Source: Kineosporia corallincola
GTDB lineage: Bacteria > Actinomycetota > Actinomycetes > Actinomycetales > Kineosporiaceae
NCBI RefSeq assembly: GCF_018499875.1
Contig: NZ_JAHBAY010000002.1
Span: 1-64,000, forward strand
Reading direction: 5' to 3'
Length of the DNA stretch: 64,000 nt
A program made the position numbers and the translations under genes. Shown in pieces: positions 3-44,065 of this stretch (positions are counted from its first letter, which is position 1; every line of letters begins with the position of its first letter). The notes below the pieces were generated by a model. That model was given only the letters and a program-made list of their open reading frames with translations, made no database searches and was not told where the DNA came from.

Positions 3-2690
3 ACGCACGACGCCGCCTCTCCGCAGGATCAGAGCGTCGAGGCGCTGGTATCGCTGCCGGAGCGGGTCGGCGCGCTCCCGGCCCGGGTGCGGCAGTGGCT
101 GGCCGACCACGACCGGGCTGTGACCCGGAGAGTGGCTGAGCAGTTCCTGGCAGCCAGTCCCGATGTGCGCGGTTACCTGCGGGACGAGGGCCTCCGTCTC
201 GAGGATCTGCCGATCGGCGGGCCCACCGGCAACCTGACGCTCGCCGGGCTGGTCCGTACCGTTCTGGCCCGGCTCGCCGACGACCAGGCGAACAGCGGCA
301 CCGGGCCGACCGGTGCCCGTCTTCTCGGGCAGCCGGCTCGGGCCGTCGTCAGGGTGTCCGGCCAAGTGCCTGTCCAGACCGATCTGGCCGCGCCGGAGAG
401 CCTGCCCTCGCCGGAGCACATGTTCGATGTCCTGCGGGGCAAGGTGGCGCTGCGTCCGTGGCTGCCGGCCCTGGTCCACCTGGCGGAGCAATTCGCGTTC
501 GAGAACGGGGTCCTGCCCCCCGAGGGACTGCGTGAGTTCCCGGGTGCTGAGCTCATCCGCCTCGTGCGTCTGGAACTGAATGCGCGCAGGGCCGGTTTGG
601 GGACGAACACCGAAGGCATGACGGAGGTGCAGCGAGGTCAGTGGTTCTGGACCGTCAACGTCGGGTTGATCCGGTCTGCCCTCGTCTCCGGGGGGAACGC
701 CCGCCGGGCACCGGCCGTCCTGAAGGTCCGGGGGTACCTGACCGGAGACCAGTCGCTGGACGGCACTCAGCGGTACACCCTGGCCCGGCTCTACCAGGTC
801 CTCGCCCGGGTGCGGAGCCGGTCCCAGCTGGTGGAGTCGACGTCCGTTCTCTTCGATCTCGATCAGACGGACCAGGAGGAAAGGCTCCTGGGCGAGGTGG
901 CGCTGGAGCTGGAAGCCAGGCACGCCGAAGAGAGCCTGGTCGCGCACCTGGTGCAGTGGCACATCCGGGACGGCCGGCCAACCCCACGGCCCGAGCAGAA
1001 GGACATCGAACCCCTCCACGTCCTGAACACGTCCCTGGACCCTGACTTTCCTCTCGAGCACGTGGCCAGTGATGATGTCGACCTGAGAAAGGCCGTCCGG
1101 AGGGAACTGCACCTCCTCGGAACGGGTCTGGAGAATCCTGGGGTCCAGGTGCTCGAGCTCTTCGCCGACGCCTTGTCCGAAACGGCCGTGCGGTCGTCGC
1201 TGCGACCGGTCACGGCGCCGTACGGGTTCGCGGCGAACGTGTATGACGTCGCGGAGGGCACGGTTCTGCTGATCAGGCCGCAGGTCGTGCTGGTTCGCGG
1301 TGACAGCGACGTCACCGAGCAGGACGAGCGGGCACTGACCGATCGGGTGGCCCGGCTGATCACGAGTGCCTGGGACTCGACGGCCAGGGTCGTGACCGAG
1401 GGCCGGACGGTTTTTGTCCGGGTCCTTCCGCAGATCGGGATTCGGCAAGGGGTCATTCCGGACGCCGTTCTCGTTGTGCAGCACGATGCGCAGGACGTCC
1501 GGCCGATCGATCCCGACCTGCAAGAAGCACTGAGTGCGCTGCCTGCGGCCGTCCTGCTCGAGCCGCTGTCGGTCGGGGCTGGTGACGAGGAGATCCTCAA
1601 CGCCTTCCGGCCCGTCCTCGGTCTGCCCGACTGGGGGGCCCCGGGCCGGTCCGCTCGTTCGGTGGACGACGACGTTCGTCAGCTCGCTCGTCTGGTGCTG
1701 GACCAGATGAGCGTCGACGACGCCTCCGGGCGCTGGCGGCCGGGGCGGGAGGCCGACTGGTACGGGCTGCAGGACGAGGATCTGGAGGCTCTGCGGTACA
1801 ACATGCTGGGCAGGCTGTGGGACGAGAGCGTCGCTCTCGGCCTGGACGGCCTGCTCCCCGAACCCGTCGAGGACGGCTGGGGCGGCGGGCAGCCGTTGTG
1901 GCAGGCGCTGGCGCCCGACCGGATCCGCGCGATGGTGGCCGAAGCCGCCGAGACCGGTGACGAGCGCGTCGAAGAGGTCGTGCGGCTGCGGGCCGAAGAC
2001 GATCCGGGCGACTTCGTCCTGGTGAACGTGGCTGTCCAGATGATCCAGGGTCTGCGGCCGGGCATCGTCGTCGCCGCCGGGCACCGCAGGGACGAGACAC
2101 GACCCGACCCTCAGGAACTGCCCGAGCGCCTCTTCGAGGTGAACCTGGCCGATCCGCCGCCCCGCCCCTCGACCGTCGAGCGTTACCGTGCCGCTCTGCT
2201 CGACCTGCGCGCGCACGCCGCCCGGATGACCGGGGCGGACGGCCTGCCGGTGACGTTGCCGGAGGACGACAACATCCTCGAAGAGATCATCGACGAAGTG
2301 AGGCTGTCGAGACCACGGGCGACGACCTTCACTCAGTTGATCACCTACATCCAGGACGAGATCGCTGAGAACGGGCCCGGACTCGGGACGCAAGATGCCA
2401 CGGTTCACATCGACGGCGGCGAGTCCGCGAACACTTCGGACGCCGGGGACCAAGAGGAACCTGGTGGCGGCGTTCTGGCCGATGTCGTCGGCTGGACACC
2501 GAATTACGACAACTATGACTTCACCCAGGAGGACGTGGACACGTTCGCCGGGATGCTGCAGGAGGACGCAGGGCAGCTGAGCGAGGACGACGAGGACTCC
2601 AGCGAATCGGTGTCCGGTTCGGACGACTCCTCCGACACCGGCGAGCCGCTGTCACGGCTGAGCCTGAGCGGTGGAGGGCTCCCGGGGGGC
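3..2690 (+). repeat. Long tandem unit, copy 1 (protein-level repeat)
   Basis: This is the first of two ~900-residue paralogous units. It opens with a helical segment (RQWLADHDRAVTRRVAEQFL). It continues with a segment ending LPPEGLREFPGAELIRLVR, a beta-rich segment beginning VTAPYGFAANV, and a helical segment beginning DWYGLQDEDLEALRYNML. The unit ends in an acidic Ser/Asp linker (about 2,560-2,650). Its left end is cut by the window. No enzyme motif is recognised. Confidence 0.8.
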
Positions 2691-5600
2691 GCGACGGCCC
2701 CCGGGATCGTGACGATGCTGCGCGACTCCGGTCTGCCCGGGATCGAGATGGAGTCCGCCAGAACGCTTCTCGAACAGGTTTACGAGGCGTTCACCGTCGC
2801 GGCGCGGGGTGCGGGCTCGTCGCGCGGGCTGATCGCCGAGCCGCTGCTCTCGTTGCCGCGCCGGGCCGGGGCCGTCCCGGCGCGCGCCCGGCAGTGGCTG
2901 ATCGATCACGACCGGGCGCTGACCGCGCGCCTGGCTGAGCAGTTCCTGGCCGATCATCCCGATGTTCGTGAGGCACTGGAGAGCCAGGGCACCGATCTGC
3001 TGCGAGATCTGTGGATCGCGGGCCCGACCGGGGACATCACGTTCGGGACGCTGGTCGGCATCGTGCTGGTGCACCTCGTAGATTCCCCGGAGAACGCCGA
3101 AGCAGACGCCCCGGCCCGGGGTAAGGGTAAGGAGCGGCTCCAGCCGGACCCGGAGACGAGCTACGCCAACCTGACTTTCGAGGTCCCCCCGGGCCAGGAC
3201 GTCCCGGCGGGCACCGTTGTGAACGTCTCCGGCCGGGTTGCGCTCCGGGCGACCGGGACGGGGCGCGCGGCCCAGACCTCCGTGCTGGAGGTGGTAGCCG
3301 TTCTGGACGGCGACCGGCCACTGACCGCCCGGATGCGACCGGTCCTCGTGCACGTGGTGGAGAGTCTGGCGTTCGACGCCGGGCTTCTTCCGCCGTCCGA
3401 TCTGCGCGAGTTCCCCGACCAGTACCTGAGGATCTACACCGATCGCCGGGTGGTCGACGAGATCAACCGACGCGCAGCACCATCCGGTTCGCTCTCCGAA
3501 ACCGAATTCGTCGAACTGCAGCGGGAAGTGCTGAACGACGTCCTTCAGGCACCCGGGTCCGGCTTGCAGGCACCGAAGCCGGCTGAGGTGCTCGGCTACC
3601 TGCTGGCCGGTGAGGATCTGACCCTCCAGCAGCGCGACACGCTGCTGCGGCTGGCTCGAGCCCTGGGCCGGGCACAGACGCTGGTCCAGCTGCGGGAGCG
3701 ACGTGAGGTGAACCGGGCCCTGGCCGTTCTGGCGGCTGTCTCGGACGACATTTTCGAGGCGTGGGTCGTGCCGGAACTGGTCCGGCGGTTCGTGCAGTCC
3801 GACATGCTGCCGGAATTGACCACGGTGCAGGTTCTTTCCCGATTCCTGGACACCGATCTCACGGAGAGCGAATGGTCCGGACTGGACTCCGGGGCGATCC
3901 GTAGTCTGGTCCGTGACGGGTTGCGCCTGGTGGAACTGGAACTGCGGTCGGACACCGGTGCCTCGGATCAGGCAGGGAGCGCACGCCGGCAGTTCGACCT
4001 GCTGGCGAAAATTCTTGCCGACCTGGCCTTCCGCTCGGCCGCGGTTCCGGTGACGGCGCATCACAGCTTCTCGGCGCGGGTGGTGCCGGTGGGGCCGGAC
4101 GCGGACGTGATGGTGGTCCGTCCGCGCGTCTGGCTGATACCCGGAGACCTGGGCGTGACGCCTTCCGGGGCGATGGAGACGGCGGAACGGATGCGGGAGA
4201 TGCTGGTGTCTTCCTGGGCCGCCACCGGTGGGGACGTCCTGGAGGGGCGCCGCCGGTTCGTCCGGGTCGACCCCGTGATCAGCCCCGAGCAGAAGGACCA
4301 CCGGCCTGACCTGGTGATCTCTCTGCTGTCCGGTGCCGAGCGCGTTCACTGGTCGGAGGATGCTGACTTCTCCGGTGCGGCACATCCCGAGTTCTTCCAG
4401 GCGGCCAATGACTACGTGATGGCCATGCGTGATCACGTCTCGATCGAGGATGGTCCTCTGGTCGAAGAGGTCCGGATGTCAGCCGGCGACAGGGAACTAC
4501 GGGAGTTTCTGCGTCTGGCGATGGGCCTGCCCTCCCGGCAGGTCGTGGGGCACATGTCTCCCTCCCCGGACGGCGACGTGCGGCAGGTGGTCCAGCGGGT
4601 ACTGGACCAGGCACGCGAATCCTCTGCCGCCCCGCGCGGGAAGGGAAACGTGGAGTTCGAGTGGTACCGACTGCACGATGAATATCTGGAGGAAGCCCGG
4701 AACGCCGTCCTGAACGAGCTGTTCCAGCGGCTCATGGAGCTGGAACACGATGATCTTCTACCGGAGAGGGGCACGGCCGGGCCGTTCGCCTGGCCGGCCG
4801 ACCATTCGCTGATGCGGGCGCTGGCCCCCGAGCAGATCCGGGCCACGCTGGCGGCGCTGGGCCTTCTCGGAGTGGACCTCCACCCGAAGACCGTGACGCT
4901 GGAACCGGCCGACGGCGACCGGAATCGCGCTGTGCAGGTCAGCCTGATCATCGGCACAAGCCCTCGGATCGATGTCGTCCTGGGAAACACCGGCGATCAG
5001 ACGCTCCCGTGGCAGAACCGGAGCTTCGATCGATGGTTCCAGGTAGACCTGCCTGACCCGAGGCCTCGTCCCTCGGCTCGGCAAGAGCTCCAGGCGGCCC
5101 TTTCCGACCTCCGGGCACAGATCGAGTGGACAGCGGACAGGAGCGGCCGCCCGGGCCTCGTGCCGGCCGAGGACGCAGATCTGACGGCCCTGGCCCGCTC
5201 GGTGCATGATCCGGTCCGCACGCTCGGGGAGATCGCCCGGCATGTGCTGGACGAGTCGTCCGGCGACTTCCCACCGCGCGCTGAGGAGATGAATCTTCGG
5301 GGTGGTGGCGATTCCGACATCGACATGAATTTCTCGGACGAGGATTTCTTCGAGGCGGAGGAGATTTTCGGAGAGCGGGTCGCCGCAAGGCTGTCCGACG
5401 ACGGCGACACCGACATGCTCGATGCAGAGGCCGACGAGACCGAGCCGCAAAGCTTCGGGGAACGTGTCGCTCAACGGCATGGATTTTTCGACCCGCACGA
5501 TCAGGTGGCCCGTTTCCTCGACACTCTCTTCAAGAAGATGGCCGACTGGGCCTGGAAGTTGCCCGACGTCTTCCTTTCCGAAGACGTGGTATTTCCCGAC

Positions 5601-8600: not shown

Positions 8601-11600
8601 CTGATGATCCTTGACACGATCGAACACGGACTGCGGCAGACCGGTTTCCCGGTGTTGTCCAGCGAGGGCTACCACGCCTTCCGGGCCACCGGTGAGGTGC
8701 CGGACCGCCGGGCGCTGACCGACATGATGAACGGTGGCCGCGTCGAGTTCGACCGCGACGTGCAGCACCAGGCCCTGATGCAGCTCCGGACCTGGGTGCT
8801 GCGTAACCTGACCCCTGAGGTGAGTTTCCAGCTCTCGTCCCGGGTCGGCGCGAACTACACCGATGTCGTGACGATCCGGGTCGTGCCTTTCCAGCGGTTC
8901 GGCCGCGACTATTCACAGGTCGAGATCACCGTCGAGTCCCGTCCGCACCGGACCGGCCGGGACTCCCGGACGGTGACCTGGAAGAGACCGGTTCATGCGG
9001 AGATTGCGCGACTGGTGAGGCTTTCCGGCCTCGATCAGCTCGCCGCGGCCCAGGCGGCCGGCATCAGCGCCGACGTCGTCGCCGCACGCGTCCGGGACAT
9101 GCGGCGCAACGGTGAGCCCCTGGCCGGCGGGGAGGACGCCATCGCCGTCCTCATGCTGGAGCGGACCGGTCCGACGCCTGGCCAGTTGCTCGGCAACGAT
9201 CTGATGGTCCGGGCCTACGACGCCGGCATCGACGTGGTGGCGGAACTTCGGCGGGCCGTGTCAGAGGATCGGGTGGGAACTTTCAGGGAATGGATCGAAG
9301 CGCAGGCAGAGGGCCGGCAGCGGACACCGGCCGTGCCCGTGGTGCAGAGCGTGCCGGACATCGTCGTCACCTCGCCGACTCCGGTCGACGAGGCCGCCCC
9401 GACCGCCGGTCCCGCAGCTGAGCCGGGCGAGATGAGCCTGCAGGAGCTCCAGCGGGCGATGGGCGCCGACCGGGTGTTCTCGGCCGCCGAGCTGCGGGAG
9501 CAGTCAGGGCCGTCCGGGACGGGAACGGACACGCCGTCCCGGTTCGACGTTCCCGCTCTGGAGAACTGGCTGAGGCCGTTCGCGGCGATGGACGACGACG
9601 TCGCGCGCAACCATGCCATTGCCTCGGCGATGAGAGGGCAGGACACCTCCGGCCGCCAGAACGCGCCGACACTGGCGGACATCGTCAGGGTGCTGGGGGC
9701 TGACGGATTCGCCGCGTTGCCGCCCGCGGGCGCGGTCGACGCCCTGTCCCGGCTGATGATGCACCTGGGCGACAGTTCCATGGCCTGGCTCGCCCACCGG
9801 GGACCGGACGGAACCCGGATGACGTTGCTGTTCGGGCACGCCGATCGGCCGCCCCTGTGGTGGGACCGGACCGGTGGGGCGGGCGAGCAGCTGCGTCCTC
9901 TGGCCGACATGCCTCCCGCCCTGTGGGGAACGATGGTTCTGGTGATGACGCCGGACGGATTCGTTCTGTCGTCCGCCGACGTCGGGCGTGGGCTGGAGGG
10001 AAGCCTGGACGCCGTCCCCACGGCTGCGGTGCCCGCCCCGGTGACCACTCCCGGCCGCATCGAAGTCAGCGATGTCGAACTCTCCCGACAGCACTGGATT
10101 TTCGATTCCTACCGGGCGCGAGCTCTGGTCGCCGACGGGGCGACGCACCGGTTCGCCAGTTTCCGGATGCTGGTCGACCACGTCCGGGACACGCACTACA
10201 GCGGTCACCTCCCCGGCCCGCACCATCAGGACATCCACGTCCGGTTCGCCAAGAACCGTACTCACCTGCTCGGCGTGAGTTCCCAGTCCGTTCCCGGTCA
10301 CCAGTTCCTGGAGGCGGTCGCCGCCGGGGGATCGTTCCCGATGTTCCTCGACGGTGACATCCCGAACGACGACCTGAGCCGCAGCCCGGCCCTGAGAAGG
10401 GTTCTGGAGGATCAGCTGGCACCGCGGTTCCGGGACTACCGGATCACCACGGGCCAGGACGGGCAGGACTGGGCCGTTCACGGCGGCGAGTCGATCCTCC
10501 CGCGGCTGGCCCAGGCCATGGACCGTTTGCGGGCGTCCCTGGAATCAGCCTCTGCAACGAACCTCGCGAGCCTCTGGGGTGATTTCGACCGGGAGGTCAT
10601 GGCCTACCTCCGGCTGGCCCGGGCCCATGCCGAGGACGTGTTCGCCCAGGTTGCCGACCGGTCCCCGATCGAGGTCAGCCCGGCCCAGGGATCCCTCGCC
10701 CGGGCCTGGGAAGACCTTGAGGTGGCGCTGGTTCCGTTCTTCGACCGGGTGAACAGTTCTCAGCGCGACGGGCTGAGCGTGGTGCTGTGGGCGTGGCGCG
10801 AGAACCATCCCGACACCTGGAACGATCTGCTGACGCGTTTCCTGAGCAGCCTGATCGGGGAGATCGGGTCCCGCGCGGCCACCGACCCGGCCCTGACGGC
10901 CGGGGAACGGGCCGAGCTGGCCGAAACGCCCAGACTGTCTGACCGTCTCGCCCAGTGGCGCGAGTTCTCCCGGGCGGCGGCGGTCCGCCGGGCCGTGCAG
11001 AACGGCGTGCCCTTCGTCTTCATGGCGGCCGATCACGCCCGGACGGTCCGGACCCTCGTGCCGCAGGCCCGGTTCCGTGACGTGAGTTCCGAGGTCGACC
11101 GCTGGTTCACCGGAACCGACGTCGACGGCCGGTCCCGGATGTTCGAGGACGAGGACGAGGCCCGCGCCTACCACCTGGGGCTCACCGACCACATCGGACT
11201 GCTCGTCGACGGACCGCACGCCGGCACCCGTGTGCGATTCTCCCCGGTGGGTCTCAACCTCCTGGCCGAACAGGCCGGATCGCCCTCGGCCGGATCTGTT
11301 GTCCGGGCCGTGTCGCGCCAGGCCCGGGACAACGGGAGGAACGAGCTCCCGAGCGTCGTCCATCAGCAGATCCCCGCGGAGGACCTGAGCGCGCTACCGA
11401 ACACGCGCCAGGCTGTCGAGGAGATCGATGCCGGGCTCTACGCCCTCCTGGGACTGCCGGCCGGCGTGTCGCACCACTCCTCCGGTCTGGGTTCCCTGAC
11501 GGCCCGGATCGGCCTGGCCGCGGATCAGGTGCTCGACCGGCTGAGCGATGTGAGCACCCTGACGAGTAACACCTACCGCGACCTCGTCCTGGGTCGCTGG

Positions 11601-14600
11601 TACGCGCAGGACACCGGGGTCGCGACCGTAACGCCGCTCCTGAACGACCTTCTCAGCGTCGCCTGGCTGGGGGAGTACCGCAGTGTCGGTGCTGCGCTGG
11701 ACCATCTTCGCCTCGCGCGGGGTGCAGCCTTCGTCGAGAGCAACGTGTTGCCGGCACTCCGGGGTTTCGCCGCAGACCTCGGCCGGGCGATGCGCGACCA
11801 GATCGCCAGTGACGACCGGCTGAGTGCCGAGGACCGGATGCGCCTGGCGAATGTCCCCGACTCGCAGTTCTTCCGGGAATGGGGCGATCGGGTCCTGGAC
11901 GAAGGGCTGCATCGGGCCGCGGATCGTGGTGTGCGGTACGCCGGTGTCGGCGGTGACCAGGTGCCGCACCTGCGCCGGCGGGGAACGGCCGACCGGCCGG
12001 ACATCCGGATCTTCGATTCCCGGCCGGCCTCGTCCGTCCGGGAATTCGAGGCCGATCCGGTGGGCCGCTTCCCGGAGAGCTTCTCCCGGGAGCAGAAGGC
12101 CGCCCTGCTGCAGGCCCTGCAAGAAGCGGCCGAGCGCCTTGACCAGTTGCCGCAGGATCGACGAGAGCTTGTGCAGCAGCAGGCGCGGCACCTCACGACG
12201 CAGTACTCCCGCCGGCCGCGGACAGCACTGGAGTCGTCCGAAGGCGCCGCCCCGGCCGGCGACTACCAGCGTCGCCTGCTCGACATCGCCGATCTGGTGG
12301 CCGCCGAGCTGATCGAAGAAGGCGCTGAGGCAGCCGATGAAGCCGCCCGGGTCTGGGCGCAGAGGTACGGCAATCCACGACCGGATGGTCTCGGGGGCAC
12401 GGGCCCGAAGCGCGGCGCGGTGGCCGGGCCCAGCAACGCTGTGGTTGTCGGAAAATTGTCCGGGGCGGATGATCAGCTTGCAGCCGAGCAGGCGGTCAAT
12501 GCGGCGATCCAGGCCGGGACGCCGCCAGTCAAAGTTGTCCAGCGGGTGCTGCAGGGCACCGGGAAGGTGCATCTCTCCCCGCTGAACCCCACGGTGGACA
12601 AAGATTGGGCACATGCGCAGGTAACCGTCTCCATCTATCCCGTTCCCGCGGGGAACCAGAAGCAACGCTATCCGTTCCGGGCTAGCAGAGACATGCCGGC
12701 AGACCCGGATCGCTTCCGATGGGCGAACCTCACCGCGGAGCAGGTGGCCAGGCTTTCGGAGACTGTCCCCGAGCGTAGAACAGGGGGCATGCCCCTACCG
12801 GATGACGAAACCGCCGCACGATTCATTCGTCAAGCATTTGTGAATGGGCGGCCCTCAGACATTTCCCTCAGCCGTATCGTTGATTTCGAGCAAAGGGTGA
12901 AACTGGGCATCGAGCGCCGTCTGATAATAGGCGACCCTGCATGGGTGTTCGCGCGCGTGCGTATTGAGCTCTATCGCGGTTTTTCAAGCGATGGCATGTA
13001 CCGGATCTTCCTGGCCTGGTCGAAAAATGATGAAGAGGAGGTTCATGACTACCGCTCGATCATCCTCACCGAAGATGATCTCTCCGTCATCAAGGACGAA
13101 GAGAAATCCGGGCGAATCAGGTTCAGTAAAGAGGAACTGGAAAGTGAGAACGAGGCCGCAAGGCTCGCATTCCGCACAGCGCAGGATCAGTCGCGTCTGC
13201 TGTTAGGCCGTGACAAGGGAAAGGTCGGTGTCGGGGGAAAGGTATCGGTTCTGGGTCACCAACCGTCCCTGGGAGTCGATTGGGCGGCAAAAGATGTCGA
13301 GGTAACGGTTTTCCGTGATCCTTGGGGCGGTTTCAGGGATCCACTGCAAGCCGTAGATCTTTCCGGGAAGGACGAACCGCGTTACCGCTGGCGGAAGCGC
13401 TCGCCGCGCGAGATCAGCGACCGCGCCCGGGCTACGGTGCTGAACCTGAGGGAGCAACAGGTACGGCCCCGCGCTTCTTTCGCGCGCCTCGTCGATGCCA
13501 ACGGCAAGATCAGCATCGGGACGCATTCGCCTCAAGTGAACGAGGCGTGGGCCAGTTCGACGGTCAGGTTCGACGTCTACAAGGCCCTACCTAACGGCCG
13601 GGTCCACCCCTTCGCGGCCGTTCACGCGAGCGGCGAGGCATTCGGTTTCATCGAGCTCACCCCGGGTGAGTGGGAAGGCTGGGTAGCTGCGTCCGCGGGC
13701 GCGTCCAACGCAGAGTTCCGGGGGATCCGGGGTCTCGACGGGTGGCCGGACGGTTACGGGTGGCCCGCGGGCTACGTCTTGTCGCCGGCACAGCGGGCAG
13801 CCCTGAGCACGGCGGGTCTGGTACCGAGGCCGGTTCACGGGCCGGGGGCAGGGCTCTATGCGGCAGCGACGCTGGCCATGGCGGACGTGCCGATGCTGCC
13901 GCCCGGAAGCGGAGATCTCGATGTTGTCGAACGAGATCTGATGCAGCGTACGGCTTATCACATCCATTCTCGTGCGATGAATTTCGCAGAACTTGCCGGT
14001 GGGACCGAGGCTGCCACGGCGGCAGCGGAGAGCATCGCCAACGACGGGTCGTATGACATCACGGGACCCGGAGGCGACTGGGCCGTCATCGCGCTGGCCG
14101 GGGCCCTGGGTATCGATCTTGCCTATGTGCTGCCGGACGGTGTCCGGCGGGTGGTCAAGAATTCTCTTTCCGAGTTCGACGACGGGAACCCGCTGTTCAC
14201 ACTGATCAAGGTTGCCCATCTGGAGCCTCTGGTGAACAGGCCGCAGTGGTTCGCGACCGTGAAGGCGCCTTCTGATGTCAAGGATGCGCCGGGAGCCAGC
14301 GTGCCGGCCCCGGCCGGTGCTGAGCTCGGTGACCGGGCAGATGGCTTCGTCGAGGGAGGAGTGCAGGCCGCTACGGGGGTGGTCGTCAACACGGTTTCCG
14401 AGTTCGGGGGCCCGGCGCAGATCCCTTCGACGCTAAGAGTTTTTGAGCCTGATCCGGTGGCGCGTTTCCCGGAGCATTTCGCGCAGTACGACATCTCGGT
14501 TGTGGAGAATGCCCTGGCCGAGGCCAGGAATCTTCTGCTCAATGTGCCGGACGAGGCGCGGGACAACCTGCAGCAACAGGCGTGGATGCTGACGCTCGGC

Positions 14601-17600
14601 CATTCCCGTCGTCCCCGGATGGAGTTGCAAGGAATTGTGCCGTCCGATTCCGAAGCGGTTTCGTCGGAATATCTTCAGCGGCTGAAGGACATGTCTGAGC
14701 TGGTTGCCGCCCAACTGTGGAGCTACGGGGAGGCGGAAGCTGAGCACGCGGCCCGGTGGTGGGCAGACCACTACGGAAACCCGCGGCCCGAAGGACTTGG
14801 GGCAGGTGTCAGGACAGCATTGACGGCCGCCGTTGACTCCGAGCCGGAGGCCGGGTCCAGCAATCAGCCGGTCGTCGCTCGCCGGCAGAAGCCTTCCGTC
14901 AGGCAAGATCCGCTCCGGGCCGATGAGGAGGACGCGGCAGAGAGCATCCGGCAGGCTCTCGCAAAGGAACAGCCCTCGCAGGCAACGCTGACCGCAGTCT
15001 TAAGTAAAGAGGCGAGGGTGAGCCTGGCCGGTCAGGAAACATTTGTGGGGGGCCATGAGCTGGCCGGACAACGAGCTCGGATCGAGGTTTACCCGCCTTA
15101 TCCAGCAACCTCACAGTCTTCCGCGGAAAAGCGCCAGTACCCATTCCTTCTGGCGTTCATGATGAAGAATGGTGAAGAGAGTCTTCATTTCTGGTCGATT
15201 CTCCTCACAAGTGAAGATTTTGCGTCCATGAAGTCGAGGGCGCCCATGCAAGCGGTCAGGGTGACGCCCGAGGAGAGGGCGGCTCAGTCTGTTAAAGCCG
15301 AGGAAGCTTTCCGCCAAGCGGAACAGAAAAATCAGCTCCGCACACTCGACGAATCGCCTCATGTCATCTACAAGGAAGGCTGGACGCAGGTTTGGAAAAT
15401 GTCCATATTCGTGAAGCGAGAATGGGCAAGAGAGAAGGTTTTGATAACGGTCTACGACCACCCTGAGGGTGGTTTCTTGGACCCGTTCCGGGCTGTTCTC
15501 ACACCACAAAAAACTGACAACGGGCAAGCTGCACAGGACCTCGCGGAGCAACCGGTGTTTGGCTGGGTGAAGCGCCCGGCCGTGGAGCTGAAGCAACGTG
15601 CTGCGGCTCTGATCAAGACTGCCAGGGCTGCCAAGGTGCCACCCCTGTCTTTCTTTCTGCGGACTGTCAATGACGAGGGCAAGATCAGTGTCGGCACGCG
15701 GTCTCCGCTGATCAATGCTGCTTTTGCTGGGCAGTTGGTCCAGTTTGATGTCTATCCGGCAACATCGGACAGTAACCATTATCCCTTCGTGGCGACTTCG
15801 CAGGATGGAACCGAGGAATTCGGTGCCGTCGAGCTGACACCGGGTGAGGTCGCCGATTGGATCGATGCGTCTGCCGGTGCCCTGGGAGCGGAATTCCGAG
15901 CGATCCCAGGCGTTTTTAACTATGCGCTGTCGGAAAACCAGAAAGCGACGCTGGTGACAGAACGCCTGCTGGCCGTGCCCATCCCGGAGGGGCCTGGACG
16001 GGGCTTGTACTCGGCGGTCATCCTGACGATGGGCCGTGCCGGAATGATGCTGCCTTTCGGCACGATGGATCGGCTGCAGGCCGAGCGCGATCTGATGAAG
16101 CAAACGTCGAACTACATCGTCTCCCGGGTAACGGATTTCGATCCCATGGAGACGGGTGAGGCTGCCGCCGCGGCCGAGCGGATAGGCCAGGGCGAGGACT
16201 CCGACACCAGTGGCCCGAATGATGACTGGGCCGTCATCGCGGTGGCCCAGATGCTGGACCTCGATCTGGCGTACCTGTCGCCGGATGGTTCGTGGGAGGT
16301 CATCCGGACCGGTCCCTTCGCCGTGGAGAGGCCGGAGCGTCGTCTCTCGCTCGTCAGGGTCGAGCACGAGAGCGATGAGGCTGCCCCCCATCGCTGGTTC
16401 GCGACGGTGACAGCGCCGGCTGGTGTGACCGACGTGAAGGGGAAGGCGGTCGCGACCGCCCTTGAGGGAGCCGAGCCCGGTGGCGGGATCCTCGCCGTTC
16501 CCCGATTCTCGGCCCCGGACTTCAGTAACAGAAGTGCGGAGCGGGCCGTCGAGGCCGCAGAGGCCGCGAGGGTGGCTCCACTTCGCGTTTTCCTCCGAAA
16601 GCTTCGCGCTGAGGGAGACATAAACCTTCAGCCCCATGTCGTAGGGCTGGGCGCGGACTGGTCACTCGGGTGGGTGGCAGCCAGGATCTATCCGGGTCCT
16701 GAAGTGCCGGGGACCGCCAGAGTACCCTTCCCGTTCCGGGCCCACCTGCTTCCTGTGAACGGGCAGCCGGAGGAACAGGATCGATTCAGATGGCTTCACA
16801 TCACCGAAGACCAGTTGATGGCCCTTGCGGCTCACACCGGTCCTCCGGCGGATGCGACGGTTATGAGTCTCTTCGAACTCGAGAATGAGTTCACCCTGCC
16901 GGACGATCGCGACGCGGTGACGGTGATCCGGCAGGCCCTCTGGCAGCGGCAACCCTCGCGGCTCACGCTCAGTCTGCTCATCGGGCCGGAATCGAAGATG
17001 AACATCGGTGACGGACTGTACGTCGGTGGCCGCGATTGGGCAGGAACGCGCGTCAGGGTCGAGATCTTCTCCCCGCAGGGGCCGCAAGAGGATATACATC
17101 CGATCCTGGTGACCCGTGCACTCGAAGACGGGAAGCATGACCATCATTTCTGGACGGTTCGTCTCGCGCCGGATGAGATCGAAGTCCTGCGATCGAAGGC
17201 CGCTGACCTCGCCCTGGTCATGAGCCCCGAAGAGCTGGACACCGAATCTCAGGAGGCCGAGGCCGCGTTTTTGCTGGCGGTGCAGAGTGATACAGCGCTT
17301 CTGCTCGAAGAGGAGCCGCGCCAGGTTCGTCGCGACGGGACGGTGCATGCTCTGAACAGGTCCATCACCGTCGGGGTGCGGATGAGGAAGGCCATCGAAC
17401 TCACCGTTGCTGAGCATCCTTACCGTGGTTTCCGGGATCCGTTCAAGGCCATCCGTCAGGTTGCGGAACACGAGGAGCAGGAGGCTCCTCGCTTCGGATG
17501 GGTGAGAAACTCCGAACTCGAAGTGAAAGAGCGTGCCGCGGAATGGGTGCGTGAAGCTGACGATGCCCGGATTCCGGCTCTGGCCTCCTTCCTGCGACCG

Positions 17601-26600: not shown

Positions 26601-29600
26601 GCCGCCGCGGTCCGCCGGGCACAGGCGGCCGGTGTGCCGATGATCTTCATGGGAGCCGATCACGCGCAGGAACTACAGCGCCTGGGGCTACTGCCGGGAG
26701 GTGTGCTGGTCCACGACTTCCGTGACGGCGTGCCCGCTTCCATGGCACCAGGGGCTCTTGATCAGGATCCGGTGGGCCGCTTCCCACAGCACTTCACGGG
26801 CGCAGACATCGCCGTCGTCGAGCGAGCCCTGTCCGAGGCTGCCGTGATGGTGGAGAACGCGCCGGAGGGGGAGTGGCGGCGCCTTCTGGAGAACGCGTGG
26901 GACCTGACCACGAATCACTCGCGCCGTCCTCGTCAGGATGTGGAAGATACTGAGAGTCGGCAGGATTCGGACTCCGCAGACGACTATCACCAGCGGCTGC
27001 TGGACATCACCGTTCTGGTGGCCGCCCGGTTGATCACCGGGACCGAGGCTGAGGCCGGGCAGGAAGCGCGCTGGTGGGCCGCGTGGTACCGCAATCCGCG
27101 GCCTGACCGGCTCGACGACCCGGCGCCGGCAACACGACGGCCGGAGCAACCGCACGATCCGCTGCGGCAGCAGCTGAGCCCGTCGCTGGCCCCTGCGACC
27201 CCCGAGCAGGCAGAGTCCACCCCGGACACCGGCGGCATCCTGATCCATGGCGCCCCGCTGCCGCCCGGGCACCCCGCCCTGCAACACCCACGGGTCAGGC
27301 AACTGATGCGAGACGGCCGGACACACAACTTCGGCAGCTACCGGGTGCTGGTCGACTACATTCAGGACACGCACTACAGCGGGCATCTGCCCGGACCGCA
27401 CCGTCAGGGGCTTCTGGTCCGGTTCGCCAAGCGCGACGAGTCGGGTGCCATGATCCGGCACATCGTCGGTGAGAACCACCTGTTCATCACCGGCGAGGAC
27501 ATCCTCCAGGCGGTGTCCCGCGACGGTGAGGCCCCCCACTTCATCCATGAGGGGATTCCGTACGACGACCTGAGCGGCAGCCCGATGCTCAGCGCGGCGC
27601 TGGGCCTGAGCAAGAGACCGGGCTTCCCGGGCGTCCAGATGCGGGAAGGGTATGACTGGAGCGTTCACGGCGGTGAGTCGATCTACCCCAAGCTGGCGTG
27701 GCTGATGACCAAGGTGCTGGGTGAACTGCGGCAGGGCCCCGGCTTCGCCAATCTGGTGGCCTATTACGACCAGGTGGCTTCCCATCAGATCCACTGGTCC
27801 TGGGCCTACGCCGGTGACGTGGCCGGGCGGGTGCACTCCTCCCCGGCCGACGCGAGCGAGGAACAACGCGCGCTCGCTCTAGCATGGGACGAGACCTTCA
27901 ACTCGCTGATTCCTTTCCTGTCCGAGGTCTGGAGTTCCGGGTCGCTGGGTTCGACCTTGAGGGACTGGCAGAGCAAGCCGACCGATCTTTCCGGCGGTGA
28001 GTTGGTCGCGCAGCTGACACGGCTGCTCACCCGTTTCGTGGAGGAGGTGGATACCCGGCTCGCCGACGACCCGGTGATGACCGACGAGGAAAAGGCGGAG
28101 GTGGCACGGATCCCGGACGGCGAAACCCGCCGGTACCGGTGGCGGGACCTGTCACTGGCCGCCCGTATCCGCACGTCGCAGGCGCCCTTGAACTTTGTGG
28201 GAGACGCCCATGCCAGGGTGCTGCAGCGAGAGAACCTGGTGCCCGGCGCGCAGTACCACGACATGACCTTCGATATACCGCAAGATCTTTCGCAGCCACA
28301 GGGGGCGTCGACCGCGATCTGGTCGCCGCCCGCTCAGACGGCCGTGGACGACGATGCCTTCCTGGCTGACCTGGCTGACCCGCAAGCCGTTCCGATGGAA
28401 CGGATCCCGCGCTCGGTACTGCACGAGATGACGCTGGATGCCGTACTGCGGGAGATGGACTGGGAGCCGCAGGTCACGGACGGCGCCGTCGAGGCATTGC
28501 TCACCGGCCGTCCCGGGGACAGCGGCCAGGAATCAGCGCGCGGTGAAGTGGCCTCGCCGAGCAGCACGATGCTGGTCGCACCCGGCATCCGCGAGCGCGT
28601 CGTGCACCGGATCTGGGCCGCCCTCGAGGAGACCGGAGCCCGGGCCGCGTCCTACGGCCGCTCGTGGCGGGAAGATCTGAGCGCGGCGATCGAGGCGCAG
28701 GTCACCCAGGAGTCGCTCAGCGCCCTGGTCGCTGTCGCTCCTGCGCCGAACATCACCGTCCTGGTCCGTTCCCGCCCCACCTCGCCGTCCCGGCGCTGGG
28801 TGAGCATCACGGTGACCGGGCGGCGCGATGACGACGTGAACGGTGCGGCGGTGCCGCTGGTGCGGTTCGGTGTGCTGGTGCAGTTCCGGACCGGCCCGCG
28901 GGCCTGGGTCCGTAACGTCTCCTGGAGGGCGCTGCGCCGGCGGCTGGGCGGTGAGGAGTTCGTCGAGGGGCGGACCGGGCAGGCCGAGCGCGAGATCGTC
29001 CCGGCCAGGCTCGGTTTCAGCGCCGACGGATCGCTGCGCCTGTCCCCGTACCGGCCGCAGGCCGGCACGGACGAGCAGCCCCCCGGCCCCCGGCGTCCGC
29101 TCGTCCCACCGAGGACGATCCCCGAGGCGGACCCGCTCCAGCAGCGTCAGGCTCAGCTCACCCGTAGCGCTCCCTGGCAGGACCCGGCCGAGGGCCTGCT
29201 GCGCCGGGCCAGTCTCTCCGGGCACGAGCGCGCGGTGCCGGTGCGGTCCCGGCCGGTGGCCCGCCGGACGTCACCGGACCCGCAGGAGATCCAGGACACC
29301 GGGCACAACGGGGAAGGATACGAGGCGCTGAAGAAAGGGCTCGGCGAGGACAGGGCCGAGGAGAAGCTGACGCGCGCCTACCGCAAGGAGGCCGGTCAGT
29401 ACGAGCCGCTGCGGCTGAACGGTGTTCCCCCGATGGTGCGGGTGCTGGCATCCCGGCACCTGGGGCTGGTGGACGCCGTCAGTCAGCGGCTGATCCCGGG
29501 GCAGCTCGACGGCCTGGACCTGGAGACGGTCAACGACGCCGCACGGCACGCCGGCATCGAGCGCGAGCTCGTGCGCGCCGACCATCTGCTCAGCCAGGCA

Positions 29601-32600
29601 CAGGTGCAGGGGATGCGCCGGGACCGCCTGGCGCAGCTGGTGAACCAGGTGTGGGAGAGCGCCGCCCGGATCGCCGAGCTGGGACCGGAGGGAGCCTACC
29701 GGCCTCTTCCGCAGGCGACGGCCCATCCGAAAGCGGTCCTCGACCGGTTGCGCCTGAGGGCGGCTCAGAAGAACCTCCTGACCGAGGTGCCGGGCGCGGC
29801 AGCGGTGGCGACCGAGGCGCAGCCGTCGGCGGAGCGTCCCGGCCTGACCCGCAGCGTGAGCGCCACCTCGTTGCGCCGGGCCCTGGTGACGTCCCGGCTG
29901 AACAGCCTGCGACGTTCGCCGGCATCCCGGAGCGTGGACCACCTGCCCCTCACCGGTGGCGTGACGACGCCCGCGCCCGGTTCCGGGACGGAGGCCGTTC
30001 TCAGCGCACCTCTGGTTGCGGAAGGGAGTTCGTCACCTCGGGGGACGACGGTCCCCGCGGTCCCGTCGCTGTCGGTCGCCCCCTATTTCCCCCGAGCCAC
30101 GGGACAGCTGAACGCTGTCGATGTACGAAGCATCGCCGAGCTCGCCGCGATGATCGACGAGCTGGCCGCGCAGTTCGGCCTGACCGTCGATCCGTCCCAG
30201 ATCCGCTTCGTCACCGAGCCACTCGTGCACGAGTTCGACAGTTTCTTCGGGGACGGCCGGAGCTTCCCCGTCCGGGCGCGCGCGAGCCGGCGGAACATCC
30301 TCGGCCACCGTTCTGGTCGTCAGCTCGACATCGGCGTCCAGCTACGGCAGATCCGTCAGGATCCGGCGCTGGATCAGGCGAGCACCCAGTTCCGGCAGGA
30401 GGTCTACCCCCGTCGCTCGGTGACCAACTCGAAGTCCCGGATGAAGGGGGGCGGGGGCGGCTTGCCGCTCGGTATCACCCTGCTCTCCCCGGTGGGAGTC
30501 GGTGGCTCGCTGGAGTTCTCGGCCGGATGGCTGAGCCAGGTCGTGCACCGGCGGGACGTCGTGACCGCGGACCAGCGGTCCTTGCGCAGCGCCGACGGGG
30601 CGCAGTTCCCGATCCGTTTCCAGTACGTGCTCACGGTGGCCCCCGCGGCGCGGCGGGGGGTCTCGACCCCGTTGCGCGATGCGCCGCGCAGCAGTCTCGT
30701 GCCGGGCAAGGCGGTCCTTCAGGCACCGCAGGACCTGCTGGACATCGTCTGGACGCCGCCGGAACAGCGGGTCACGGTCGCGGTGACGCAGGAACAGAAC
30801 GCCGCCGTCGTCGTCGCGCCGTCGTTGGCCGTCGATGCCGTGGTCGATCTCGGCGACCTCCGCGAGGTGCGTGGCGCCCTGCTGCCGGAGGCGATCACCG
30901 CGCCGAAGGCCCCCGGCCGGGAGATCCTTGAGCGCATCTCCCACTCCACGGCTGTGCAGCGCGACCTGATCGCCATGCTGGAGGGCCGTTTCGACTCGCC
31001 CACCCTGCGCGGGCGCACGAGGAAGGACTGGACCGCCCTCAACAGCAGCGCCAGGATCACCCACGCGATGCCGCTGGGGATTGCCGGGCCGGCGAACCTG
31101 CGTTCGGCCCGGGTGACCGGGCAGAACCTGATGATCAGCAACGGCCGGGTGATCGACCTGAGCCTCGCCGTCGGGCCGGCCGTCGGGGTGGGGTTCGATC
31201 CGGTGTCCTGGCTGGCCTGGCGGTTCCTGCTCAACGGGGGTCTGAGCTGGGGGACGACGGACGAGGTTGTGCACTCCACCCAGGGCAAGGAGGGTTTCCA
31301 GGTCTCCAGCCATCCCCGGGTGCTGTACCTGGTCAGCATCCTGGTGACGGACCACGGGTACGAGCCCCGCACGTCCACCTGGCGGCCACTGATGCCGCAG
31401 GGGCACGAAATCCAGGTGGTGCTCAGCCTGTCCACGTTCGAGGCCGCCGGGATCGGGCTGCCCGGTGTCGAGGGCATCGCCCCGATGCTGACCCGGTTCG
31501 ACCCGGCCTCCGGCGCCGAGCCGCGCCTTCTGCCGGCCTGGCTCTCGGACGGGACGCAGACCACCGGGACCCTGGGCACCGTGATCCTGCCCAAGGACGT
31601 GCCGGCCGACCTGGAGGACGCCGTCCGGGGACTGGTGAACGAGTCCGGCGCGGGTGACCTGATCGGGCAGGGAACGGGAGAGCCGAAGACGGCGTCCGGG
31701 GCCGTGGCGCTGGCCCGCTACCTCAACGACCGGGAGATCCGGCAGAACCTCACCCTCGGCTCACTGACCTCGCTGAAGCCGCACACGATCGAGTTCACGA
31801 GGAACGGTGTGCTGTGGCGCGACGTCGTGACCGTCACCATCACGCCGCACCGGGGTGGGGCGGCGTACCAGGGGTTCTGGCAGGTCGTGCAGCGCTCGAC
31901 CAACGTGCACGAGATCAGCACCTCGACCGAGAAGAGCGGCAGCCGGCGGATCGGCTGGCTGAGTGATCTGCGGGCCAGGTTCGTCACCGCGAATGTCGGG
32001 CCGGCCGCCGCGTTCCGCCAGATGTGGGAGCGGGGTTGGACCCGGTCGGCCGGCACTCTGCAGAACAACTTCTCCCTGTGGGTCGGCGACGGGACCACCG
32101 ACGTCTTCCAGGTCCCCGTCGACTTCGTGATCAGCGCCCAGGTGTCCCGGTACACCCGGCCGCGCGCCGCTTACCGGCTGGCCGGCCCGGCCGCGGTCCC
32201 CGGCGCCGACCGGAAGCAGCTGGTCGCCGGCCCGGCTCCCGCGCGGCCCGCCGAGCAGGAGATCGGGGCGCTCTCGCCCCGCCGTCAGGTCCTGTCGATC
32301 AGCTCGACGGTGGTCAGCACCGTGGGCACGATGACGGTGCCCCGGGCGCTGACCAGGAACGCAGGCTCCCGGCCGTGGCCGCAGATCGGCCCGGCGCAAT
32401 ACCGGCGGGACGATCGCCCGCAGGACGGGACCTTGCCGCTGCGCCCGGCGATCCTGGACCGGCCCGGGCCGCGCTCGCCCGGGCACCCGGCCGACCGCGG
32501 GACCGTGCTCCAGATCAGTTTCGGCGACCGGATCCTCGACGTGGTGAAGGATCTGGCCGCACGGGTGACGGACGCGGACTTCGTCGACGGCTACCGGGAC

Positions 32601-38600: not shown

Positions 38601-41600
38601 GAGCTGTTCGCCGAGGCCACGATCGGTCTGCTGATCTCCGGTCCGGTGCCTCGGAAATCGCTGTCGCTCTGGTACTCCCGGACGTCCGGGGTCCTGGAGG
38701 CGGGCCCGGAGTCGGAACCGCTGCCCGACCGTAACCCGGTCGTCGACGAGTTGCTGTTCACCCTGACCTGGATTCCCGAAGCCACCAGCATGCGGGCCTC
38801 GCTGCACCGCCTGCAGCGGGTACAGGTCAGTTCCGACGGGCTCGTCGAAGGCTCGGCCTGGGCCCGTCCGGCGCAGGACCAGCCGTCGCCGGAGACGCAG
38901 CTGTGGACCGACCTGATCGGCGTGCGGGCCACGCAGATCCAGCCCGTCGTGACGGAGCCCGCGACGACTCTCGGGACGGCGACCGGTCTCCCCGCCTCGA
39001 CGATCACCCCGCCGCAGGAGGGGCACGCCGCGACCGCCGGGGCACAGGTGAGCGACGCGGCCCCGGCGAGCCGAGAGCCGGCGCTGGCGCTCGGGCCGTG
39101 GGGCGATCGGGCCCGGAAAATGCGCTCGGACAACGGCGAATCGCAGAGACTGGCCCGGCAGCTGGCCGACTCGGGCATCGGGCTGCCGCCCGGGGCTGTC
39201 CTGGGGGCGCTGAACGCCGGGCGTCGCCGCTCGGTGCTGGTCTCCGGAGTCCCTCAGGAGACGGCGGAGCTCATCGGGCGGGCCCTGGGCCTGGACGAGG
39301 TGGCGTTCACCAGCGACCCGTCGGTCTGGTCCGGCCCCGCCGACCGCAGGTACTACCAGGTGCGCCCCTCGGACGGCATGTCGTACGCGACCTGGGACGT
39401 CGTCCAGCGGGGTACGGACGGGAGCTGGTCCGCGCACTCCACGGGCCTGGCCACCCTGCCGGCGCCCGCCTGGGAACTCACGCTGGTGCGCAACCCGCTA
39501 CCGGGCCGCATCTACGTCGTCTACCCGGACGGCGCGGGCCAGCTGGTGTCGAACACGCTCAGCGTCCGGCGCTCGGGAAGCGGCCTGATCGTGTGGCCGG
39601 TCGGTGAACCAGCGCCACCGCTGCGGGAGATCGTCGCGGACCAGGAGGAAATGACGATCCAGACCGCGTGGCTGCCATCCCCCGAGGAGGTGCAGGAGGC
39701 GGTGCGAGAGGTCATGGATCATCTGGAGGCGGACCACCGCAGCAGCTTCCGGGTCCTGGACCCGCGGGCCGAGGGGATGAAGCGCTCCGGGGATTCCAAG
39801 AACGCGGGCCTGACCTATCCGGTGGGGCTGCGGGTGCTGGACGACGGGACCGTGACGGCCCAGTCCTGGCGTTCCGGCAACTCCCGCACCTCAATCTTGC
39901 GGCGCGGGGGCTTCTATCAGAACGGCTACGCCTGGCGCAGGGCCTTCTCCGCCGCCCCGGCGCCTGTGACACCGGGATGGCACACGGCGCTCACCGAGTA
40001 CGGCGCGGTGCTGACCTCAGGAGCCGCCCGTTCCGTCCCGGTGCCCGTCAACGGGCTGGCATCCCCCGAACGGCCGACGATCGTCGTCGCCGCCGACGAC
40101 ATGGCGACGGCCCTCCTGCCGTTGTTGCGTCTGCTGGACAGCAGACCGGCCGCCGCGCTCCCGGAACTTCGCATCGTGCAGGTGAAACCGGATGGCTCCC
40201 GGAGGACGACGGACAGCCCCGGCCTGGCTGAGCTGTTCGGCAGGCTGGCGCACTCCTACGGCATGACCGTCACCGCCCACCAGGGCGTCCTGCGCCGGGG
40301 AAAGGTGTCGGTCAGTGACGCCCTGAAGCTGGAACCGGTGTCGTATCCCATCCAGTTGCCGGTGTCCCTGGCAGCGCTTCTGGAGCCAGCATGGTCCGTG
40401 GCACCGGCGTCTGCGGAGCCTGACCCTGCTGAGCAGCGGGCGAACCTGGCGCTCGGCGCCGGTGAGCCGGGCCTCGAGGAACGGCTCACCGACGCTCTGC
40501 TCGCCGGTGGGGAGCCGGCGTTCCTGGGTGAGCTGGCCAGGGTGTCGGTTGCTTCGGGCGTCGACGTCACCATGATCCGGCCGGACCTCGACCGCCTCCG
40601 GCGCGACAAGGTGATCGGCCCGGGCACCGCGCTCCTGGCCGCCGCACTGCTGGAGGCGTCGCAGGGGTCGGTGGCCGAGCTGCACCAGGCGATCCAGGAC
40701 CGTGATCCGGTGGCCCTGGTGCGGCTGCTGGCCGGGTACCGGCGCTCAGCCAGCCTGCTGCACCTGCTGCACCGGCAGTACCGCGCAGAGCACAGGGCGT
40801 CGATCACCGACCGGGTGCTGTCGGTGGTCCAGGGGCATCCGGCGGCGGCGGTGGCCCAGTTCCTGCTCGGCAAGCCGCTTCTGCTGACTCCCGTGGTGGG
40901 GGTGGACGAGGCACGCCGGCTGTACCAGGAGATGGCCGATCTGGCCCGGGACCCGGACCTCGGCAGCAAGAACAACGACCTGCGCGAGCTGCGCCAGCAG
41001 ATTGTCCTGAACCAGCGGGGCGTGGCAGGGAAGGCGATCCGGATCTTCGCTCCCCTGGAGATCGTCAACCCGCGGGCCGAAGATGCCTGGCTGTTGGACG
41101 CCGGGGGGCAGACGGCCCGGCAACACGGGGCGGCCCTGGTCCGGGTCCGCTTCCCCGACGGCATCGAGCAGGACGTCGTGCTCGACCCGGTCCTGGGTGC
41201 CGGCCCGCTGCTGGTCGACGACTGGGCGCGTCGTCTGGGACTGGCCGGCACACCGCAGCGCTGGGACGCCCGGGCGGACGTCCCCGCCGACCAGGTGCGC
41301 AGAGGTCTCCTGGCCCCGTTCTGGGACCCGGCCGAGTCGGCGATCCTCGTCCTGCCGGGGTTTGCGGCCGACCCCTCCGCCCGAGTGATGGGCTGGCCCG
41401 AGTGGGACGGCCTGATCAGCCGGCTCGGCACCGGCCGGGACGCAGTCGTCGAGGGAGACCGGCGACGCAAGCGGTGGGACATCTGGCAGCTGGTCATGAC
41501 GCACCAGCGGACGGCCGGGCTCAACGGCCGGCTGCTGGGTGCTCTGGTGAACTGGATCTTCAGGCATCCCGCGCGGTCTCACCTGCTCCGGCTGCCCGAC

Positions 41601-42830: not shown

Positions 42831-44065
42831 ACAGCTGGGCAGTGGGCGACGTGAGCGACGTGAGCGAGGGATCCGGCCTCAGGGAGCCGGGCACGGCTGA
42901 GGTACCGGATCCTCCTGAGACGCCGGATCTGGACGACTGGCACCACCTGCTGCTGCGGATGGCCGGGGCGCTTCCGGACGAGGCAATCAGCGACGCGCGG
43001 GCCTGGCTCGCCGAAGGCGCTGTGCAGGACGTGGCCTCGGTGGTGGCGTTCGCCGCGGTGGCCCGGCAGACGCCGGTCTGGGACCTGGACACCCTGGTGC
43101 TGCTGGACGAACTCGAGCGGGCCGGTGACCAGGTGGAAGCGCTGAGCGACCTGGTCGTCACGCAGGACGTCGCCGATGCCTCCGGCGCCTGGGCGTTCGC
43201 ACCGGTCCGGGTGAGGACCGAGGTCGAGGCCGAGACGGAAACCCCCGTCCTGGATCTCACCGCCGTCCGCCCGGACCCTGACGACGAGGACGACGGGGAC
43301 GACGGCGCGGACAGGATCGATCGCGCCGCCGTCCAGGCCGTGCAGGACGAGAGCGAGGTGGTGGCGCTCTGGCGGGCCTGGCGGGTGCCGGCCGCCGCCC
43401 ACGCCCGTTTCGGCCCCGTCTCGCCGGACAGCCGCAGGGTGTATCTCGTCGCAGCCCGGGTGTCGGCCGACGGCGCGCTCGCCGGCCTCGCCGCCCGCCT
43501 GCAACTGAGGCTGCTGGCGGCGGGGGAGGACGATCCGCAGGTCGAGGTGTGGCCGGAGGGCGGCGGCCTGCCCCCATATCAGAGTGCTGCCTGGTTGCGC
43601 TCGGCCCTGCTCTGGGCACGGGAGCCGGGGCCGGTCCTGCGGCTCGCCCGTTCCTTCGACGCCGTCCGGTCCCAGGAGGGACCGCAGTTCGATCCGGGCC
43701 ACCCGCGGATCGAGGAGACCGCCGAGATCGCCCGTCTGCTGGAGTATCTCGGCGGCGCGGCGCTGGTGCTGGCCAGCGACGTCACGATGCCCGACGTGCT
43801 GGAGCCCGGCAGCGGGGCGGTGGTGCCGCTGTCGCTGCGCACCGACGGTACCTGGATCTGGTCGGACTCGGTGGCGTACTACCTGGAGCGGTACGGCCTC
43901 AGTCCCGAGCCGGAGCTGTGGGAGCACCTGAGGGCGCAGGCCGGCGGCTGCCCGCCGGTGTCCGCCGTCGCCCTGCACCGGGCCTGGTGCCTTCTGGTGC
44001 AGGGCCGCGACACCACCGACGCCGAGGTCGTCTGGCAGGTGCCGGTGCCGTCAGGTGTGCCCTGA
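42827..44065 (+). CDS. Acidic partner protein translationally coupled to the giant gene
   Basis: The ATG overlaps the giant gene's TGA as ATGA, which decides the start (412 residues) and implies coupled translation. The N-terminal ~130 residues are helical (DDWHHLLLRMAGALPDEAI, ARAWLAEGAVQDVASVVAF). They are followed by an acidic stretch (PDPDDEDDGDDGADRID) and a mixed alpha/beta C-terminal half ending in WQVPVPSGVP. No signal peptide or membrane segment. Unlike its neighbour it contains cysteines (GGCPP, AWCLL). Family not recognised. Position and coupling suggest a chaperone, secretion adaptor or immunity partner of the giant protein; this is inference from context. Confidence 0.85.
   Translation: MNSWAVGDVSDVSEGSGLREPGTAEVPDPPETPDLDDWHHLLLRMAGALPDEAISDARAWLAEGAVQDVASVVAFAAVARQTPVWDLDTLVLLDELERAGDQVEALSDLVVTQDVADASGAWAFAPVRVRTEVEAETETPVLDLTAVRPDPDDEDDGDDGADRIDRAAVQAVQDESEVVALWRAWRVPAAAHARFGPVSPDSRRVYLVAARVSADGALAGLAARLQLRLLAAGEDDPQVEVWPEGGGLPPYQSAAWLRSALLWAREPGPVLRLARSFDAVRSQEGPQFDPGHPRIEETAEIARLLEYLGGAALVLASDVTMPDVLEPGSGAVVPLSLRTDGTWIWSDSVAYYLERYGLSPEPELWEHLRAQAGGCPPVSAVALHRAWCLLVQGRDTTDAEVVWQVPVPSGVP

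Follow-up and report, generated by a model that had tools for sequence, protein, structure and literature searches.

Near-total exclusion of cysteine from giant, largely ESX-linked proteins of Actinomycetes, including a Cys-free frame of 14,275 codons in Kineosporia corallincola

The window analysed here comprises the first 64,000 bases of contig C2 (NZ_JAHBAY010000002.1) of the Kineosporia corallincola assembly GCF_018499875.1 (8.2 Mb, 53 contigs), and it opens with a giant open reading frame (ORF) that encodes no cysteine (Cys). Giant ORFs from several actinomycete families were found to share this depletion, and most of those that could be assessed lie close to genes of ESX (type VII) secretion loci. 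The reading that best accommodates these observations, held here with moderate confidence, is that they are giant, ESX-linked proteins of polymorphic-toxin type under selection against stray thiols. The ORF of the window would then correspond to the C-terminal 14,275 residues of one such modular protein from an ESX locus. Since the window starts at base 1 of the contig, the ORF is truncated at its 5′ end and the real protein must be longer.

A preliminary description of this DNA, made from the sequence alone, had reported the lack of Cys, and a direct count in frame 3 bears this out, with zero TGC and zero TGT among 14,275 sense codons followed by one terminal stop; the first GTG and the length given there, on the other hand, cannot be taken as those of the real gene, as the frame is cut by the contig start. 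The host background was estimated from 307 genes (105,325 aa) in twenty 20-kb stretches of the same genome, called heuristically by a simple GC-frame rule that covered 79% of the bases. Its Cys content of 0.756% predicts 108 Cys in 14,275 aa, and when host proteins were resampled to that length in 10,000 bootstrap draws, the mean was 108 (standard deviation 14.5) and the minimum 58. The longest background gene without Cys measured 744 aa. From the base composition at each codon position, 171 TGY codons (TGC or TGT) were predicted, against none observed, whereas TGG (Trp) was used 262 times against 149 predicted. Additionally, TGY triplets occur 700 times in frame 1 and 285 times in frame 2. 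As TGY is frequent out of frame and TGG exceeds its prediction, these counts point to selection on the protein. A mutational or codon bias that removes TGC and TGT at the DNA level, in favour of which nothing was found, has therefore a negligible probability, and the genes neighbouring the giant do contain Cys; the gene directly downstream carries two in its 412 aa, in agreement with the preliminary description.

The Cys content of homologues, whose comparison had been proposed in that description, was examined, and those found were Cys-free or nearly so rather than normal in content. A paralogue on contig C5 of the same genome has an 11,288-codon frame with a single Cys, which lies within a caspase-like motif. 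The 4.1-kb contig C34 (G000:C34, 1-4109) is open throughout, with 1,369 codons, 0 Cys and 56-57% identity to the start of the window ORF, and may be a piece of the window giant or of another giant. Contig C26, considered as the missing upstream end, was discarded because no giant frame was present in the first 20 of its 47.5 kb. With residues 10001-11200 of the window protein as query, matches were obtained in two of 58 genomes, the own genome and Kineosporia babensis JCM 31032 (G004); scans of genome contigs for relatives gave none in the first round and K. babensis only in the second. The K. babensis giant has a frame of 23,998 codons whose sole Cys is codon 9, upstream of the likely GTG start, which leaves 23,988 aa without Cys. 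The CpnT-like N-terminal domain WXG100_2 (PF25547; cut-off 27 bits) is matched at the N-terminus with 61.7 bits in the C5 paralogue and with 40.5 bits in the K. babensis giant, and the window protein would belong with them by homology; CpnT itself is far shorter, at about 850 aa. The gene upstream of the K. babensis giant, Cys-free over 2,955 aa, scored 26.3 bits for this domain in one search and 30.3 in another. In another genome (G002), three giants of 17,449, 5,032 and 16,920 aa share contig C1 (421001-476000, 617001-634500 and 660001-713500). Two smaller Cys-free ORFs were also noticed, one of 1,258 aa (L023:15157-18930) upstream of the giant of K. babensis and one of 872 aa (L009:11314-13929) upstream of that on C5; they are perhaps further type VII substrates.

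The gene that overlaps the stop codon of the giant, hereafter the partner, is 55% identical to the gene directly after the K. babensis giant, and its relatives were found in all six genomes of the genus and in none of seven other genomes of the family. To test a prediction, the region upstream of the partner was inspected at four places without a previously known giant. In G003, a one-contig genome, it holds a Cys-free frame of 13,402 codons; the N-terminus of this frame shares 52% and 43% identity with two K. babensis N-termini, and Pfam reports no WXG100_2 in it. In G005:C9 the region holds a Cys-free frame of 17,664 codons, truncated where the contig begins. A partial partner match also occurs on G005:C3. 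The partner would be a dedicated chaperone or immunity protein.

Of 296 genomes sampled across the class, 98 contained a match to PF25547, which was above cut-off in 78. Among the matches listed, ORFs were chosen mainly by frame length and before their Cys content was known; the choice was not exhaustive, and family f22 was left out. The set consisted of 31 ORFs, eight from the genus, and the window, C5, C34 and two K. babensis ORFs (44), to which two were added later (46); the final totals exclude C34 and two tails lying behind runs of N. Expected Cys was calculated from the rate of each host, or from the median rate where the host had not been measured, and background rates outside the own genome come from small samples (3,352-11,207 aa). 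In the 28 giants of at least 3,000 aa, from several actinomycete families and totalling 265,347 residues, 36 Cys were counted against 1,840 expected, and 15 of them have none. The 12 giants of the genus (153,834 residues) account for seven Cys against 899 expected, with eight Cys-free, and the 16 of other genera for 29 against 941, with seven Cys-free. Depletion was milder in shorter ORFs with WXG100_2, both at 2,000-3,000 aa (n = 10; 42 Cys against 176) and at 1,000-2,000 aa (n = 7; 34 against 86), and length and Cys percentage were negatively correlated (Spearman rho -0.56 over 43 ORFs, computed with the two gap-broken tails still included). Hence, selection against thiols, as suggested by the preliminary description, is supported, but its specificity to this one protein is not, as a whole class of giants is affected.

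Three controls bear on the cause. Nine nonribosomal peptide synthetase (NRPS) ORFs of 2,101-8,332 aa, taken singly from nine different genomes of this set and in four cases incomplete at the edge of the sequence stretch, contain 0.32-0.71% Cys, with a longest Cys-free run of 1,233 aa. In 46 signal-peptide-like proteins, selected by a crude predictor and pooled from 11 genomes, Cys amounts to 0.71% past residue 40, compared with 0.74% in 315 proteins without a signal pattern or later membrane stretches. Met and Trp, at 1.34% and 1.30% in the giants, are near the 1.57% and 1.48% of the background from the genome of the window, and in the window protein they stand at 0.89 and 1.24 times background, respectively. 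Therefore, length alone, Sec-type export and sulphur saving are not ready explanations. Economy of sulphur or of amino acids in very large proteins would be in line with the rise of depletion with length and with Cys being a costly residue, yet the near-normal Met and Trp make it very unlikely.

Another explanation is that the absence was inherited, the repetitive chain having been duplicated from a Cys-free ancestor without thiols being costly. The window protein is indeed repetitive, with units of about 880 aa, six OTU-like copies and six modules named HYSG-LPGPH. However, the identity of module copies to the reference copy is only 29-46%, a divergence at which Cys would have had every opportunity to arise, and the core part (aa 10000-10790) has 0 Cys in the window, K. 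babensis and C5 sequences despite identities of 59% to K. babensis and 56% to C5. In addition, profiles of three modules gave no significant match beyond the genus, and yet the giants of other genera hold only 3% of the expected Cys. Inheritance from a Cys-free ancestor is thus considered quite unlikely.

Of the 36 Cys that the giants retain, 20 fall by eye in nucleophile- or zinc-type motifs, comprising seven caspase-like, four OTU-like and seven papain-fold-amidase-like assignments and two in a deaminase-type CxxC. PF15644 is matched above cut-off around two of them, covering the Cys in one (G147:636) and matching only the later half of the domain in the other (G002_C1b:16748), and five further assigned Cys have Pfam matches below cut-off. 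Local profiles align the Cys in eight papain-fold-type rows (this set includes a shorter ORF), four caspase-like rows and three OTU-like rows. Cys seemed at first to cluster in toxin domains at the C-terminus, with 12 within the final 288 aa of the G256 ORF and four at the end of the G241 ORF, but this idea was rejected, since both tails follow runs of N and by eye look out of frame; cutting them removed 16 Cys, from 52 to 36. The G241 frame also spans two inner runs of N.

The window protein appears to have gone further. One OTU-like copy was modelled, and the rows of its structural match span model residues 22-209, the OTU part. The position of the nucleophile is Gly in all six copies, immediately before the helix at model residues 72-82, and Trp stands in all six where alignment by eye would put the catalytic His; both positions follow the Cys and His motifs of OTU domains. 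In OTU cysteine proteases the catalytic Cys lies where a core helix starts, and the catalytic His belongs to the last core strand. Pfam gave no match for the OTU-like copies, and BLASTP of one copy against the OTU-motif segment of G111 gave only a match with an expectation value (E) of 0.027, outside the motif. The 16,920-aa Cys-free ORF has Ser in two OTU-like motifs. On the basis of the model and the alignments, the OTU-like folds of the window protein are probably dead, and they probably now serve as binding or structural modules.

Linkage to ESX loci was assessed by searching eccB (PF05108) in 21 genomes, a giant being scored as linked when, from coordinates, eccB lay within 15 kb of either of its ends; five giants from genomes outside this search were excluded from the count. 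An eccB was present at this distance for 18 of 23 giants, in two of them (G000_C14 and one of G005:C9) as fragments of 65-68 profile positions. The K. babensis giant is adjoined by an EccD-domain protein, an FtsK/SpoIIIE ATPase and two WXG100 proteins below cut-off. Export, which the preliminary description had offered as one setting for the selection, is supported indirectly, in the type VII form, by the WXG100-like N-termini of the relatives and the nearby eccB, but not as export in general, which spares Cys in these bacteria. Alternatively, the giants could be intracellular or surface scaffolds that merely lie beside ESX genes and avoid thiols for self-association into a fibre or coat. OTU-like domains without a nucleophile do fit a working enzymatic toxin poorly, but the N-termini and eccB linkage of the relatives, as well as the Cys kept in nucleophile-type motifs of other giants, argue against this, and scaffolds are judged unlikely.

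Several observations weigh against the interpretation of ESX-linked toxin-type giants under selection against thiols. The N-terminus of the window ORF is missing and its WXG100-like domain is extrapolated from relatives, in which the domain is not an independent finding, as 25 of the 28 giants were selected by it (the others being the window, G003 and the G005:C9 contig-start ORF). No eccB lies within 15 kb of five of the 23 giants, namely the window and the G005:C9 contig-start ORF, whose upstream sides are off-contig, G002_C1c (about 17 kb), G174_C17 and G272_C1a. The partner-based prediction failed at two of its four places, with no giant upstream at G001:C13 or at G000:C5 near 476 kb (a partial partner match). 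Among the 46 signal-peptide-like proteins, 11 have no Cys past residue 40, the longest being 685 aa. As for the remaining Cys of the giants, 13 of the 20 assigned lack any Pfam match, and 16 of the 36 have no catalytic assignment, six of these being repeated within one G111 ORF (6,310 aa, 10 Cys). Secretion of the giants is read from sequence context, and a cause other than ESX linkage could operate, as the long-protein comparison covers nine NRPS only.

If the preferred interpretation of ESX-linked toxin-type giants is correct, they would probably be secreted by the ESX machine, and any Cys dispensable for catalysis or metal binding would be removed by selection. With chains as large as 1.5-2.5 MDa, every free thiol might raise the odds of mispairing or aggregation while the protein is made, held and exported, and in the window protein the OTU-type domains would have lost even the nucleophile. 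A stricter thiol rule can tentatively be imagined, though it is somewhat unlikely, in which Cys survives only where it acts as a catalytic nucleophile or binds a metal, and some of the longest proteins drop even these residues, turning into arrays of dead folds (here, six pseudo-OTU domains) that bind rather than cut, for example ubiquitin-like folds of eukaryotic neighbours.

The remaining architecture of the window protein (Table 1) includes multiple domains of toxin or protease type, among which the six OTU-like copies (one folded) look inactive and the papain-fold and glutaminase-like matches are weak. The papain-fold-like match (aa 3198-3327) has E 4.9e-4 with a two-sequence profile and 0.24 with an eight-sequence profile; a stronger iterated-profile score is inflated, because the row itself was part of the model. 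Gln_deamidase_2 (PF18626) is matched below cut-off in the C-terminal module (E 0.011; 16.4 bits against 25; positions 52-105 of 106), and the fold prediction there (aa 13450-13999, two sequences; mean predicted local distance difference test score 42.7) supports no conclusion. Pfam gave no match on aa 1-9600 at E up to 1. Profile searches of PDB sequences (E up to 10) returned no trusted relative for the OTU-like, C-terminal or HYSG modules: the OTU-like profile had a single match (E 1.6), the HYSG profile matched one ATP synthase subunit (E 0.0019, about 100 positions), and the C-terminal profile matched a molybdenum-binding protein (E 0.16) and eight clostridial neurotoxin entries (E 1.8-2.1), which were taken as chance.

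Table 1. Location of the giant ORF, its modules and the partner gene in the 64,000-base window
Feature	Position	Strand	Remarks
Giant Cys-free ORF	3..42830	+	14,275 codons plus stop; 5′ end lost at contig start
N-terminal repeat unit, ~880 aa (aa 3-878)	9..2636	+	56% identity to contig C34; DNA repeat family D3
Repeat unit, second copy (aa 934-1781)	2802..5345	+	32% identity to C34
Possible degenerate papain-fold-amidase-like domain (aa 3198-3327)	9594..9983	+	Weak match; Asp in Cys column of iterated alignment
HYSG-LPGPH module copy 1 (aa 3372-3682)	10116..11048	+	
HYSG-LPGPH module copy 2 (aa 3708-3990)	11124..11972	+	
OTU-like copy 1	13788..14432	+	Gly at nucleophile position
OTU-like copy 2	15933..16613	+	Gly at nucleophile position
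OTU-like copy 3	17919..18578	+	Gly at nucleophile position
HYSG-LPGPH module copy 3 (aa 6211-6524)	18633..19574	+	
HYSG-LPGPH module copy 4 (aa 6542-6829)	19626..20489	+	
OTU-like copy 4	21936..22592	+	Gly at nucleophile position
OTU-like copy 5	23442..24101	+	Gly at nucleophile position
HYSG-LPGPH module copy 5 (aa 8577-8892)	25731..26678	+	Structure predicted with good confidence; no fold assigned
HYSG-LPGPH module copy 6 (aa 9096-9407)	27288..28223	+	
Core block (aa 9483-10791)	28449..32375	+	
C-terminal module	40800..41402	+	Partial Gln_deamidase_2 (PF18626) match below cut-off
Partner gene	42827..44065	+	412 aa, 2 Cys; overlaps stop codon of the giant

Further along the window, a gene for an Hsp70/MreB-like ATPase whose C-terminal region includes a hydrophobic stretch (45225-46571, minus strand) lies close to the giant, followed on the plus strand by genes for a sigma-70-type factor (46650-47258) and a ricin-B-lectin-domain protein (47206-48462). 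A patatin-like protein, recognised by eye, with runs of short GSEG- and APSPG-type repeats is encoded at 56925-58160 (plus strand).

Giant actinobacterial toxins are already known. The accessible text of Zhang et al. (2012, PMC3482391) describes gigantic polymorphic toxins that exceed 10,000 aa and contain OTU domains, caspase-like domains and others of protease type, including WXG-headed toxins with OTU domains, the longest listed there being SACTE_5178 (13,652 aa); in that text the word 'cysteine' occurs four times, never with regard to its absence. The present giants differ from these toxins in reaching 23,988 aa, in holding 2% of the expected Cys and in having OTU-like copies with Gly at the nucleophile position. 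The exported proteins of Firmicutes are reported to be largely without Cys (Daniels et al. 2010, cited in PMC9974433), whereas many of the proteins that Actinobacteria export have an even number of Cys, indicating the use of disulphides (PMC9974433, with which PMC3485203 agrees), and the present giants would be an exception among them. RTX lipases secreted by type I systems and RTX S-layer proteins also have no Cys, as stated in PMC3034196, but they belong to Gram-negative bacteria and another secretion system, and the likeness is one of description. The literature search, which had most subscription papers and bioRxiv outside its range, listed no account of a lack of thiols in the giant toxins or of an exclusion of Cys from type VII giants.

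These findings provide a countable rule for some of the largest bacterial proteins, namely a near-total exclusion of Cys within a phylum that often exports disulphide-bonded proteins. Through it, a hidden constraint on the making and exporting of megadalton chains becomes testable. Moreover, the rule may flag active sites, a solitary Cys in a protein of this kind being a good candidate for the nucleophile.
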